Shown piece after piece: positions 1-64,000 of a stretch of DNA of 64,000 bases; within the stretch, counting starts at the first letter, position 1; the number at the start of each line of letters is the position of its first letter. The translations under genes were made by a program, and so were the position numbers. Under the pieces are notes generated by a model, which saw only the letters and a list, made by a program, of their open reading frames with translations, was not told the DNA's origin and did no database searches. The stretch spans positions 62,001-126,000 of the forward strand of contig NZ_PJJM01000097.1 in NCBI RefSeq assembly GCF_002929805.1, read 5' to 3'. The stretch is from Cryobacterium sp. Y50 (lineage in GTDB: Bacteria > Actinomycetota > Actinomycetes > Actinomycetales > Microbacteriaceae).

Positions 1-751
1 AGTAGATGGTGAGCAGATTGGCCACGCCGGGCTTGTTCTCGCGGTCGAAGACCACGCCGCCATCGGCATCCGTCACCGCTCGCATGATCTTCTTCCTGGT
101 GACCCCAGGCTCATCGAGCAGCCAGATCACTCCGGCGTGCGACTCGGCCGACTTCGACATCTTCGACGTGGGGTTCTGCAGGTCGTAGATCTTCGCGGTC
201 TCCTTCACGATCGCCACCTCTGGGATCGTGAAGGTGTCGCCGAACCGGGAGTTGAAGCGCAGCGCGAGGTCGCGGGTGAGCTCCACGTGCTGGCGCTGGT
301 CCTCTCCGACCGGCACCACCGTGGTCTGGTACAGCAAAATATCCGCGGCCATCAGCGTCGGATAGGCGAACAGGCCCACCGTCGTCGCGTCGGCACCGTG
401 CCGCGCAGACTTGTCCTTGAACTGCGTCATCCGGCTAGCCTCACCGAACCCGGTGATTGTGTTCAGCACCCAGGCCAACTGCGCGTGCGCGGCCACGTGC
501 GACTGCACGTACAGCGTCGACGCCGAGGGGTCGATCCCGGCGGCAATGTACTGCGCCGCCGTGCCGCGGGTGTTCTCCCGCAGCTTTGCAGGCTCCTGCG
601 CGACGGTGATCGCGTGCAGGTCGACAATGGAGAAGAACGCGTCGTGCGTCTGCTGCAGCGACTTCCAGTTGAGCAGAGCGCCGATGTAGTTGCCGATCTG
701 CAGGGACTCGGCCGAGGGCTGCATGCCCGAATACAGGCGGGGTTTGGTCAT
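1..751 (-). CDS. trpS: Tryptophanyl-tRNA synthetase, C-terminal part outside window
   Basis: Charges tRNA-Trp with tryptophan in the cytoplasm (class I aminoacyl-tRNA synthetase). Reading the minus strand from an ATG at 751 gives an uninterrupted 250-codon frame up to the window edge. It begins [20 protein letters not shown], the degenerate HIGH region (QIGN) typical of TrpRS, and has the KMSKS loop near residue 202 (TSKMSKSAE) plus the [13 protein letters not shown] segment. Family length is about 330-340 residues, so roughly 85 C-terminal residues are missing. The start codon overlaps the stop of the upstream exonuclease gene by 4 nt (ATGA), implying translational coupling. Confidence 0.95.
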
Positions 752-1602
752 GATTTGGCTCCAGAAAGGTCATAGTCGACAACGACGGGGGAGTGGTCGC
801 TCCAGCGCTGGTCGTACGCGGCGGCCCGGTCGACCGCGTAGTTGACAACGGATGCCGCCAGCTCCGAGCTGGCCAGATGGTAGTCCAGTCGCCACCCGGT
901 GTCGGTGTCAAACGCTTTTCCGCGTTGGGACCACCAGGTGTATGGTCCCTCAACCTCACCGGCCCATTTGCGCCCTACGTCTACCCAGCCCAGTCCGGCA
1001 CCCGCGTTGTAGCGCGCGTCGTCTTCTGCGCCGAGGATCCGGTCGAAATACTCACGCTCCTCCGGCAGAAAACCGGCATGCTTCTTGTTGCCGCGCCAGT
1101 TCTTAATGTCGAGCGTGCGGTGGCCCACGTTGAGGTCGCCGAGCACGAGCGTGAGCGGGCTGTGCTCGGTCAGCTCGGGCAACCGGGCGAGCATGGCGTC
1201 GAGAAACTTGTACTTCTCGATCTGCTTCGGGGTGTCGGTCTCGCCGGAGTGCACATAGGTGCTCACGACGGTGATGATCTGGCCGTCGACCTCGTAGTCG
1301 GCTTCGAGCCAGCGGCCGGCGCTGTCGAATTCCTCAGCACCGAGGGCAACGCGGTGAATGGATGCCCCGGTGCGACTCGCCAGGGCAACCCCGGCCCGTC
1401 CTTTGGCGCTGGCGGCGTCGTGCAAAATATTCCACTCTGGCCCGAGCAATCCCTCAAGGTCTTCGGTGGAAGCGCGCACCTCTTGAATCGCGAGAATATC
1501 GACGTCTCGGGCATTGAGCCAGTCGCCCATTCCCTTGCGGTACGCGGCTCGCACCCCGTTCGTGTTGATGCTGGCAATGCGAAGGGGTTTGGCTGAAGAC
1601 AT
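748..1602 (-). CDS. xthA: Exodeoxyribonuclease III / AP endonuclease
   Basis: 284-residue member of the Mg-dependent endonuclease/exonuclease/phosphatase fold; expected to cut at abasic sites and act as a 3'-5' exonuclease in base excision repair. Visible family motifs in order: [11 protein letters not shown] at the N-terminus, AIQEVRAS with the metal-binding Glu near residue 41, [16 protein letters not shown] mid-protein, and the C-terminal RLDYHLAS and [12 protein letters not shown] with the catalytic Asp-His. Length is normal. ATG start at 1602; 3' end overlaps trpS by 4 nt, and the YihY gene ends 9 nt upstream, so these three genes look co-transcribed. Confidence 0.93.
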
Positions 1603-1611
1603 GGACCAAGT

Positions 1612-2676
1612 CTAGTTAGCGGCATCCGCTCGGTCGTACTGCGTGACGACCGCTTCAGCCGTTCGGAGCCGTCGCCGGGCGCCCCGCCGGGCATACCAGG
1701 GCGAGGCATCGAGATCGGCTCTGGCGGCGGTGAGCTCGCCCTGCGCGGTTAGCCGTAGGGCATCGTGCATGCGCTGCGCCTGGTCTTCCGCCGCCTCATC
1801 GGCGCTGAGAGTATGTGGCGGAATACCGGCATCGTCCATCCCCACTGCAATCCACGACGCCGCGAGCAAGGTGACCGTGCTCACGAGGTTGAACCAGATC
1901 AGCAGCCCGATGATCACCACAAAGGTCGCCAGCAACGGGTTACGGCTGGCGCCACCGAGCAGCGCACCACCGAGAATTTTGAGCAGGCCGAGCGCCAACC
2001 CGCCGAGCAGCGCACCGGCGAACAGCCGCCGCACCGGAATGCGTACCCGCGACAGTACTCGGAACAAGCCGGCCAAGGTGAGGGTGTCGATGACGAGGAC
2101 GACGACCAGGCCAATGGTGCGGGCCGAGGCTTCGTAGAAGAAAGAGTCCTGCGGTATGTGAAGAATGCCAAAGAGCAGGCCGAGCAGCGCGGTGCTCGCC
2201 AGCGAGACAATCGCCGACAACACGAGGGCAAGGCCGAAAATCAGCCCGAGGCCGAGCTCGCGCAGCTTGACCAGCAGAAAGAACATCGTCTGCTGAGGCA
2301 TGTCAAAGACGGTGCGCACGGCCTGCGCCGTCGCCGAGAGCCAGCCGAGAGCGGTCAGCAGCAGCCCGATCAGGGCGATGAAGCCGGTCCAGGTGAGTAT
2401 GCCAGCGGTCGCCAGCAGCTCGGGGTCGATAATGCCTTTGGTACCGATCAGCCCTGGAATCGACTGGTTGATGATCGCGTAGAGCGCATTCAACAGGCCC
2501 TGATTCGCGGTCAGAAAGAGCCCGGCAACCGAAAAGCCCACCCAGACGGCCGCGAAGATGGCGAAGATCGCCTGATACGACATTCCAGCCGCGAGGATGC
2601 TGCCACCCACATTGTTGAAGTGGGTCACCACCCGCACGGGCCGCCAGGCGAGGATGCGGGCTATGAGCTCATTCAC
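1612..2676 (-). CDS. YihY/BrkB-family inner membrane protein
   Basis: 354-residue polytopic membrane protein of the YihY/virulence factor BrkB family (often misnamed ribonuclease BN). The N-terminal FNNVGGSILAAGMSYQAIFAIFA segment and about six hydrophobic helices up to residue 275 are typical; the last 75 residues are hydrophilic, Ala/Asp/Arg rich and probably cytoplasmic. Molecular function of the family is not established. The start is a GTG at 2676 without a clear Shine-Dalgarno site. It lies downstream of the sdh terminator and 9 nt before the exonuclease gene. Confidence 0.85.
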   Translation of the reverse strand: MNELIARILAWRPVRVVTHFNNVGGSILAAGMSYQAIFAIFAAVWVGFSVAGLFLTANQGLLNALYAIINQSIPGLIGTKGIIDPELLATAGILTWTGFIALIGLLLTALGWLSATAQAVRTVFDMPQQTMFFLLVKLRELGLGLIFGLALVLSAIVSLASTALLGLLFGILHIPQDSFFYEASARTIGLVVVLVIDTLTLAGLFRVLSRVRIPVRRLFAGALLGGLALGLLKILGGALLGGASRNPLLATFVVIIGLLIWFNLVSTVTLLAASWIAVGMDDAGIPPHTLSADEAAEDQAQRMHDALRLTAQGELTAARADLDASPWYARRGARRRLRTAEAVVTQYDRADAAN

Positions 2677-2691
2677 ACTGTTAGCTTAACC

Positions 2692-62720: not shown

Positions 62721-62735
62721 CCGGTTCGTCGCTGC

Positions 62736-62768
62736 AAGCGGATGCCGTCTGCTCGCCGCATCCGTTTG
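62736..62768. repeat. Inverted CGGATGC pair between response regulator and kinase genes
   Basis: AAGCGGATGC (62737-62746) and GCATCCGTTT (62758-62767) form a 10-bp stem with one G-T wobble and a 12-nt loop. It lies 16 nt after the regulator stop and 30 nt before the kinase start. Could attenuate kinase expression; another instance of the over-represented motif as an inverted pair. Confidence 0.5.
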
Positions 62769-62796
62769 ATTCCCGCTCCCTTCAGAAAGTACCCCG

Positions 62797-64000
62797 ATGC
62801 GTACCACGTCCCTGCGATTGAGAGTCGTCGCCGCTGTTCTGGCGATGCTCACGATTGTGCTGGTCACAGTCGGTATTCTAATCAACCTCGTGCTCGGCGG
62901 TCAGCTGCGGGCCGACCTGCAGCAGCGCCTGATCGACCGGGCCGGCTACGCGCAGATTCTGGCCGAGGAAGGCTTGGCGGCGCAGAGTCTGGCCAACCGG
63001 CTGACCGGCGATGACGTCACTGTGACCTACTCGGTCGGTGGCGACACCGTCTATGGCCGCACCGATCCAACTCCCGGCGGCGGCCGCGGCCCTGGCGCTC
63101 CGCCGCACGCCGACACCGTGCCCGGCGCCGTCATCATCCAAAGCGACGACCGCCTCTCGGTCACGCAAAACGTGGCCGGCGGAACCCTCATCCTCAGCTC
63201 GAGTGAGGCCGGTATCGACCTAACCCTGGCCCAGCTGCGCACGATCGAGGTTGTCGCCGGGGCGCTCACGATAGTCGTCACCGGGCTGCTGCTGACCGGT
63301 GTGGTCGGGGTGGCGCTGCGACCCCTCACACATATGACCCAACTCGCGCTCGCCATCACCCAGGGCGGACGCGGTGGGCGACTGCGCCCGAGCAATCCGC
63401 GCACCGAGATCGGGCGCACTGCCGGCGCTTTCGATGACATGCTGCAGGCGCTCGAAACCGCCGAAAGCACCTCCCGTCAGGCCGCCGCCGATGCGCAGGC
63501 CGCAGAAATCACGGCCCGTGATGCCGCCCAGGTCGCGGCTGCCGCCGAAGAGCGGATGCGGCGGCTTCTCGCCGACGTCTCGCACGAACTGCGCACCCCG
63601 GTCGCCGGCCTGCAGGCCAGCGCCGAAACGTTGCTGCGCGACAATCCGGCCCGCGCCGAGCGCGAGAGCCTCACGGTCAACATGATTCAGCAGACCCAGC
63701 GGGCTGCCCGACTGGTCGATGACCTGCTGCTGATGACCCGGCTGGACCAGGGCGATGAGGGCGCGGCCTTCGAACCAGTCGACCTGTCCGCGCTCACCCG
63801 CGGGGTTGTTGTCGAGCAGCGGATGCTCGGGACCAGCCGCGAATTCGACCTTGCGGTCACGCCCGAGGTCTGGGTGAGCGGTGATGCCCAGCGCCTGGCG
63901 CAGATTGTGACCAATCTGCTCGGGAACGCGCGCAATGCGACCGAGCCGGGTGGCAGCATCCGCACCAGCTTGGCAGTAGTTGATGGCACGGCCCGGCTAG
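62797..64000 (+). CDS. Sensor histidine kinase, truncated by window end
   Basis: The frame from ATG 62797 stays open to the window edge (about 401 codons). An N-terminal helix (VVAAVLAMLTIVLVTVGILINLVL), an extracellular sensor of about 120 residues, a second helix (TIEVVAGALTIVVTGLLLTGVVGVAL), a HAMP region, and the HisKA box LLADVSHELRTPVAGLQA (phospho-acceptor His about 267). The N box of the ATPase domain (IVTNLLGNARNAT) is near residue 375; the G boxes lie outside. Partner of the upstream response regulator. Confidence 0.92.
   Translation, partial: MRTTSLRLRVVAAVLAMLTIVLVTVGILINLVLGGQLRADLQQRLIDRAGYAQILAEEGLAAQSLANRLTGDDVTVTYSVGGDTVYGRTDPTPGGGRGPGAPPHADTVPGAVIIQSDDRLSVTQNVAGGTLILSSSEAGIDLTLAQLRTIEVVAGALTIVVTGLLLTGVVGVALRPLTHMTQLALAITQGGRGGRLRPSNPRTEIGRTAGAFDDMLQALETAESTSRQAAADAQAAEITARDAAQVAAAAEERMRRLLADVSHELRTPVAGLQASAETLLRDNPARAERESLTVNMIQQTQRAARLVDDLLLMTRLDQGDEGAAFEPVDLSALTRGVVVEQRMLGTSREFDLAVTPEVWVSGDAQRLAQIVTNLLGNARNATEPGGSIRTSLAVVDGTARL

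Follow-up and report, generated by a model that had tools for sequence, protein, structure and literature searches.

The 64-kb stretch of DNA analysed here (the window) covers positions 62001 to 126000 of contig C90 of Cryobacterium sp. Y50 (genome G000; 4.40 Mb, 105 contigs), and the element in question is the 7-mer CGGATGC/GCATCCG, which it carries 72 times, 42 as CGGATGC and 30 as GCATCCG on the plus strand. An initial annotation of the window had arrived at the same numbers by hand, and none of 100 dinucleotide shuffles of the window reached 72 copies (mean 23.0, standard deviation 4.8, maximum 37). The expected count was 16.4 under an order-2 and 17.5 under an order-3 Markov model, and 54.8 under an order-5 model, in which the 6-mers are already included. 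The bases next to the 7-mer were also biased: position −2 is A in 49 of the 72 sites, position −1 is A or G in 60 (G 39, A 21), and the base on the 3' side is C or T in 64 (C 47, T 17), so the repeated unit is longer than the 7-mer and consists of ARCGGATGC followed by C or T. The window holds 56 copies of ARCGGATG (reversed word, 3) and 30 of ARCGGATGCC (reversed word, 1). The non-random flanks described in the initial annotation as RRCGGATGCC were upheld and sharpened to ARCGGATGC(C), and the recurrent sites that it quoted are present, with position 30037 corrected to 30036.

Word counts were extended to whole genomes, using the reversed word as the control. The source genome contains 3453 copies of the 7-mer (control 726) and 1156 copies of ARCGGATGCC (control 46), and the 10-mer is enriched in all 57 of the 57 Cryobacterium genomes, with 122 to 1391 copies, controls of 13 to 55 and an excess of at least 2.8-fold; in the low-motif Cryobacterium genome G396 the counts are 151 and 39. 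The enrichment holds genome-wide and in relatives of the source strain. SdhA of the source genome is 92 to 93% identical to that of its nearest named relatives, which are Cryobacterium species, in line with this genus and with the family Microbacteriaceae. When 198 genomes of the order were searched, none of the 184 from other families had more than 82 copies of the 10-mer, and this maximum was found in a 9.4-Mb genome (G315) with a control count of 85. The core CGGATGCC was set against its reversed word in 149 genomes from the order. Nine of the ten Microbacteriaceae among them had ratios of 7 to 22 and the remaining one (G164) had 2.6, and none of the 139 genomes from other families exceeded 3.8. 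In the genomes searched, only Microbacteriaceae are strongly enriched for the core. The genus g85 contains both G164, with 313 copies of the core word, and G106, with 2791, a roughly ninefold gap that is an apparent gain or loss.

The flanks around the shared core differ by genus, and we call these variants dialects. Sequence logos gave ARCGGATGCY for Cryobacterium (G000, G405), CGGATGCCG for G063 and CGGATGCCGCGG for G142. Across 199 genomes of the family many genera prefer CGGATGCCGC, which reaches 2441 copies in G142 (control 71), 1702 in G102 (50), 1358 in G063 (36) and 1179 in G001 (20). Enrichment of at least 6-fold for the better of two words was found in 71 of the 165 family genomes of at least 2 Mb. 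A further repeated word, TACAGCCCTA, occurs in G142, with 13 copies on both strands in 140 kb (L179-L185).

The excess is not due to codon use. Genes were called with a simple gene caller of our own, and the counts refer to sampled genes. Synonymous shuffling reduced the 10-mer from 86 observed copies to 3.9 in G000 and from 122 to 4.0 in G405, showing that a codon-aware background does not reproduce the motif. Other genera gave a similar result, with 195 copies of CGGATGCCG against 25.6 in G063 and 110 copies of CGGATGCCGC against 13.7 in G142; the sampled genes of G396 held 5 copies of the 10-mer against 2.5. The motif is present in genes and in gaps and on both strands, and its density per 10 kb outside called genes, compared with that inside them, was 1.72 vs 3.13 in G000 and 3.60 vs 3.63 in G405. 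Its commonest coding phase, A GCG GAT GCC, accounts for 55 of 133 coding 9-mers in the G000 sample. The suggestion in the initial annotation that the motif forces disfavoured codons is correct for GCA (11% of Ala codons) and less so for GAT, which is only mildly disfavoured (32% of Asp codons).

The orientation of the sites was compared with the direction of replication in two complete genomes. In G063, with dnaA at about 3.53 Mb and the terminus assumed to lie opposite, 123 sites are co-oriented with replication and 119 are against it (sums made by hand), and in G405 the ratio is 155:118. The strands are mixed in the low-copy genomes G119 and G049 (22 to 48 by record strand in G049), which rules out strong polarity there. 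Of the two complete genomes, one shows no polarity of the motif and the other a weak one; there is no general orientation bias, in agreement with the earlier remark that it is unlike the strongly polar FtsK-orienting polar sequences (KOPS).

Conservation was analyzed by comparing the sdh region among the window and three relatives (L086, L087, L104). This gave 84 site comparisons from 12 ordered pairs, which are for this reason not independent. The motif was kept in 58 of the 84 comparisons and the 9-mer was identical in 50, compared with 25.1 for phase- and strand-matched 9-mers (standard deviation 4.2, maximum 39 in 1000 draws); two control words scored 2 of 9 each. Identity was 0.937 inside the sites against 0.832 and 0.842 in the flanks, so the motif sites in these four orthologous loci are more conserved than the surrounding sequence. 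The same picture is reported for the DNA uptake sequences (DUS) of Neisseria, with an identity of 97% against about 85% (PMC2397512).

Close pairs of sites, 7-45 bases apart, were counted in five motif-rich data sets, one of which holds three orthologous loci, with rough gene calls. Convergent pairs (39) outnumber divergent (15) and tandem (9) pairs, and in non-coding DNA the numbers are 17 convergent and 2 divergent. The overall convergent excess stems from G063 and G142, and the non-coding pairs of the three Cryobacterium sets are 10 convergent to 1 divergent. In the low-motif G396 set tandem pairs (5) outnumber divergent (3) and convergent (2) ones. RNA folding of five pairs gave z-scores of −2.05 to −9.15. 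The initial annotation had described inverted pairs at gene ends that recall terminators; three convergent pairs of the window do lie shortly past stops (Table 1), and no T-run follows them. A 6-kb stretch of the window, 8847-14856, lacks any copy of the 7-mer and spans a putative BMP-type ABC transporter operon.

Table 1. Motif features of the window (positions are those of the 64-kb stretch).
Feature	Position	Strand or sites	Predicted fold	Context
72 copies of the 7-mer	1..64000	both (42 +, 30 −)		45 as 9-mer ARCGGATGC, 30 as 10-mer ARCGGATGCC
Example inside a gene, A GCG GAT GCC	8011..8020	+		commonest coding phase in the G000 sample
Divergent pair	22490..22516	22492 −, 22508 +		start of a gene resembling siderophore ABC permeases
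Convergent pair, hairpin	25489..25528	CGGATGC 25491 +, 25520 −	−26.7 kcal/mol, z −2.05	16 bases after stop of + ORF 24468-25475, in gap before called gene 25705-26241 (−)
Convergent pair, near-perfect hairpin	37791..37812	37793 +, 37804 −	−24.7 kcal/mol, z −7.4	begins 21 bases past called ORF 37539-37772
Convergent pair, hairpin	62737..62766	62739 +, 62758 −	−18.8 kcal/mol, z −3.1	begins 19 bases past stop of ORF 62046-62720

The motif was scarcer on the extra contigs of three of four genomes (G405, G404 and G394). In G405, the mean number of 9-mers ARCGGATGC per 20 kb is 10.9 over 20 stretches of the chromosome and 2.0 over 4 stretches of contig C2. G404 C2 has 4 copies of the 10-mer in 60 kb, or 1.3 per 20 kb, where the 595 copies of the whole genome amount to about 3.2 per 20 kb; G394 C2 has 1 in 60 kb, and its genome has 514, about 2.4 per 20 kb. 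Ten genes scanned on these three C2 contigs encode mostly transporters, hydrolases and a restriction-type methylase. Genes in the quartile with the lowest GC content at third codon positions had the lowest motif density in three of three genomes, and hardly so in G063. Microbacterium phage Min1 (46.4 kb) contains 1 copy of CGGATGCCG, 6 of CGGATGCC and 22 of CGGATGC, where the numbers expected from its own Markov model are 2.3, 5.4 and 18.3, and those at the rates of Microbacterium chromosome loci would be 17.6, 26.6 and 37.2. This one phage is at chance level, without enrichment, rather than avoiding the motif.

Candidate genes for DNA uptake are present in the source genome. In G000, comEA (SLBB plus helix-hairpin-helix), comEC and holA are adjacent genes, and PilB, PilT, PilD, PilM and PilO are encoded in one cluster together with a short protein whose pilin-type methylation motif is weak (E 0.002, below Pfam's cut-off); two proteins at a second locus have this motif above the cut-off. 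ComEC was found in 195 of 199 family genomes; a match is kept in 30 of the 34 family genomes under 2 Mb. PilM passes its cut-off in 97 of the 199, and at least one T2SSE-type ATPase does so in all 24 of 24 chosen genomes. Among the 57 Cryobacterium genomes, the number of T2SSE matches (E up to 0.001) correlates with the motif (rho 0.72), and a PilB-like match 1212 to 1218 bases long was found in 14 of the 22 genomes that have 700 copies or more and in 0 of the 35 others (Fisher test). The high-motif genomes are mostly one clade in a dnaA tree of 20 genomes, so these two associations are not independent evidence. The type IV pilus locus with the longer PilB lies at G000:C72:1-20000 (L232), where it adjoins a PilT-like gene, and also in G193:C11, G078:C10, G406:C32 and ten others; the 14 genomes are all motif-rich (788 to 1391 copies). 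This locus is a candidate place for the receptor pilin proposed below. The actinobacterium Micrococcus luteus is reported to use Tad pili for transformation (PMC4322843), and natural transformability is reported for two members of the Microbacteriaceae, Rhodoluna lacicola and Aurantimicrobium photophilum (PMC11577799); the phrase "uptake sequence" is absent from the accessible text of the latter.

We consider the motif to be a genome-wide self-tag of the DUS kind, with a probability of roughly 0.6. It matches the anatomy of DUS on most of the points that could be tested, and its function would be in natural transformation. A surface DNA receptor, which may be ComEA or a pilin from a Tad or type IV filament, would bind tagged DNA best, and the tagged fragments would be drawn in through ComEC and then recombined. 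Tagged alleles would spread as a result of this preferred uptake and recombination (molecular drive plus selection). Such biased uptake would keep about one tag per 1-4 kb in motif-rich genomes, on both strands and in genes and gaps, and DNA acquired recently would contain fewer of them. Where a gene ends in two convergent tags, these would form a strong hairpin and possibly a terminator. For the family as a whole, we lean slightly towards self-DNA recognition by genus-level dialects of the CGGATGCC tag, which would make it an independently evolved Gram-positive DUS whose receptor may be a different one (ComEA, or a filament of the Tad or type IV kind).

Neisseriaceae and Pasteurellaceae are known to take up DNA in a sequence-specific way. 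Like the DUS of Neisseriaceae, the motif is an 8-10-mer whose copies number from roughly one thousand to several thousand in the genomes rich in it, on both strands and in genes and gaps. In both cases related dialects have a core in common, non-coding DNA contains inverted pairs, the sites exceed their flanks in conservation, and some members of the family lack an abundant motif. The accessible parts of the published work describe eight dialects in Neisseriaceae (PMC3630211) and closely spaced inverted DUS acting as terminators (PMC2397512). Unlike the DUS, whose core is the unrelated CTG, the motif belongs to high-GC Gram-positive bacteria, its link to the type IV pilus is weak across the family, and its depletion in acquired DNA is only partly shown. 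The uptake signal sequence of Pasteurellaceae (Haemophilus influenzae) is likewise an iterated word without general orientation bias and partly in inverted pairs, but its sequence is unrelated.

Several results weigh against a self-tag for uptake. The co-orientation in G405 is weak but measurable (p 0.03), and the density on G405:C1 drops toward the terminus (rho −0.53, p 0.005, 27 stretches). Enrichment of at least 6-fold for the same two words was found in only one (G177) of 34 family genomes under 2 Mb, and it is species with genomes under 2 Mb that are transformable according to the portion of PMC11577799 available. The presence of ComEC, being nearly universal, does not discriminate motif-rich genomes. 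PilM predicts richness weakly (Mann-Whitney p 0.006 across the 165 genomes that reach 2 Mb; rho 0.26 at genus level, 72 genera); it is absent from 16 genomes with more than 8-fold enrichment, including the richest, G142 (2441 copies), and 15 PilM-bearing genomes are enriched less than 1.5-fold, so a type IVa pilus was rejected as the sole predictor. The T2SSE link within Cryobacterium mainly follows one clade. The three Cryobacterium sets alone have 15 convergent and 13 divergent close pairs overall, and a terminator scan flags none of the three convergent window pairs as an intrinsic terminator, owing to the missing T-runs, so that termination would be a guess from the parallel with DUS. The conservation figures come from four orthologous loci, each containing 7 to 9 sites, compared in non-independent pairs. 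In the low-motif genome G393, contigs C2 and C3 are not depleted (10-mer 2 in 60 kb; genome 168 copies, about 0.8 per 20 kb). The extra contigs are only candidate plasmids; a 20-kb stretch of G405 C2 matched 11 records of a plasmid collection, 0 of them over 80% of the query and the best over 4%.

Among the roles listed in the initial annotation, an uptake signal is the best supported by the dialects, the conservation, the convergent non-coding pairs and the lower copy numbers on most extra contigs. A site for a chromosome protein is rather unlikely: a nucleoid-associated, segregation, anti-terminus or replication-repair factor specific to the family, which would require numerous sites on either strand and whose drifting specificity would yield the dialects. 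The abundance, non-polarity, conservation and lower density on some extra contigs fit such a site equally well, and so does the thinning of sites toward the terminus of G405, which is known for some division-site and nucleoid factors. However, no fall toward the terminus is apparent by eye in the G063 table, the roughly tenfold range of copy number within one genus (122 to 1391) would be odd for an essential chromosome function, and the preference for convergent hairpins in non-coding DNA is left unexplained. The recognition site of a DNA methyltransferase or another epigenetic mark is less probable still. The core overlaps GGATG and GCATC, which are recognised by known enzymes. The highly iterated palindrome HIP1 of cyanobacteria is comparable in being a short word repeated across a clade in variable copy number, and it is linked to orphan methyltransferases in the accessible part of one report (PMC4390886). 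The Microbacteriaceae word differs from HIP1 in being asymmetric, with flanks that vary between genera. Its enrichment spans 9-12 positions, longer than usual methylase sites.

Two further explanations are very improbable, and the results on orientation and codon use bear directly on them. Polar guidance, as by a Chi-like recombination site, KOPS or the architecture imparting sequences (AIMS), shares with the motif the use of iterated short words, and the available text of one study defines AIMS by a leading-strand bias with abundance rising toward the terminus and reports them as common to related taxa (PMC5993296). The weak co-orientation in G405 is in favour of such a role, but it is largely refuted by the near-equal ratio in G063, the mixed strands in G119 and G049, and a fall rather than a rise toward the terminus of G405; strong leading-strand bias was found in none of these four genomes. 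The motif could also have arisen by drift in codon, codon-pair or oligonucleotide bias and have no function itself. A codon shuffle that preserves neighbours retains 31.8 of the 86 copies in G000 and 42.5 of the 122 in G405, and the bare 7-mer is about 2.5 times the synonymous-shuffle value in the sampled genes of low-motif G396 (214 vs 84.0), so part of the 72 window copies is general background. As a whole explanation, codon or codon-pair bias is rejected on the shuffle counts, with the Cryobacterium 10-mer 20- to 30-fold over synonymous shuffles, and on a density of similar order outside called genes, in both orientations and several reading phases; conservation above that of phase-matched 9-mers also speaks against drift.

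In summary, an uptake self-tag is the interpretation that we prefer for the motif. No report of an uptake sequence or iterated word in Microbacteriaceae was found among the matches listed for open-licence PubMed Central texts. If the interpretation is true, the motif would be an independent case of DUS in a Gram-positive family, in which many genera, dialects and apparent gains and losses would allow comparative tests. It would also point to a practical aid for transforming these bacteria, by adding the right tag to the DNA.

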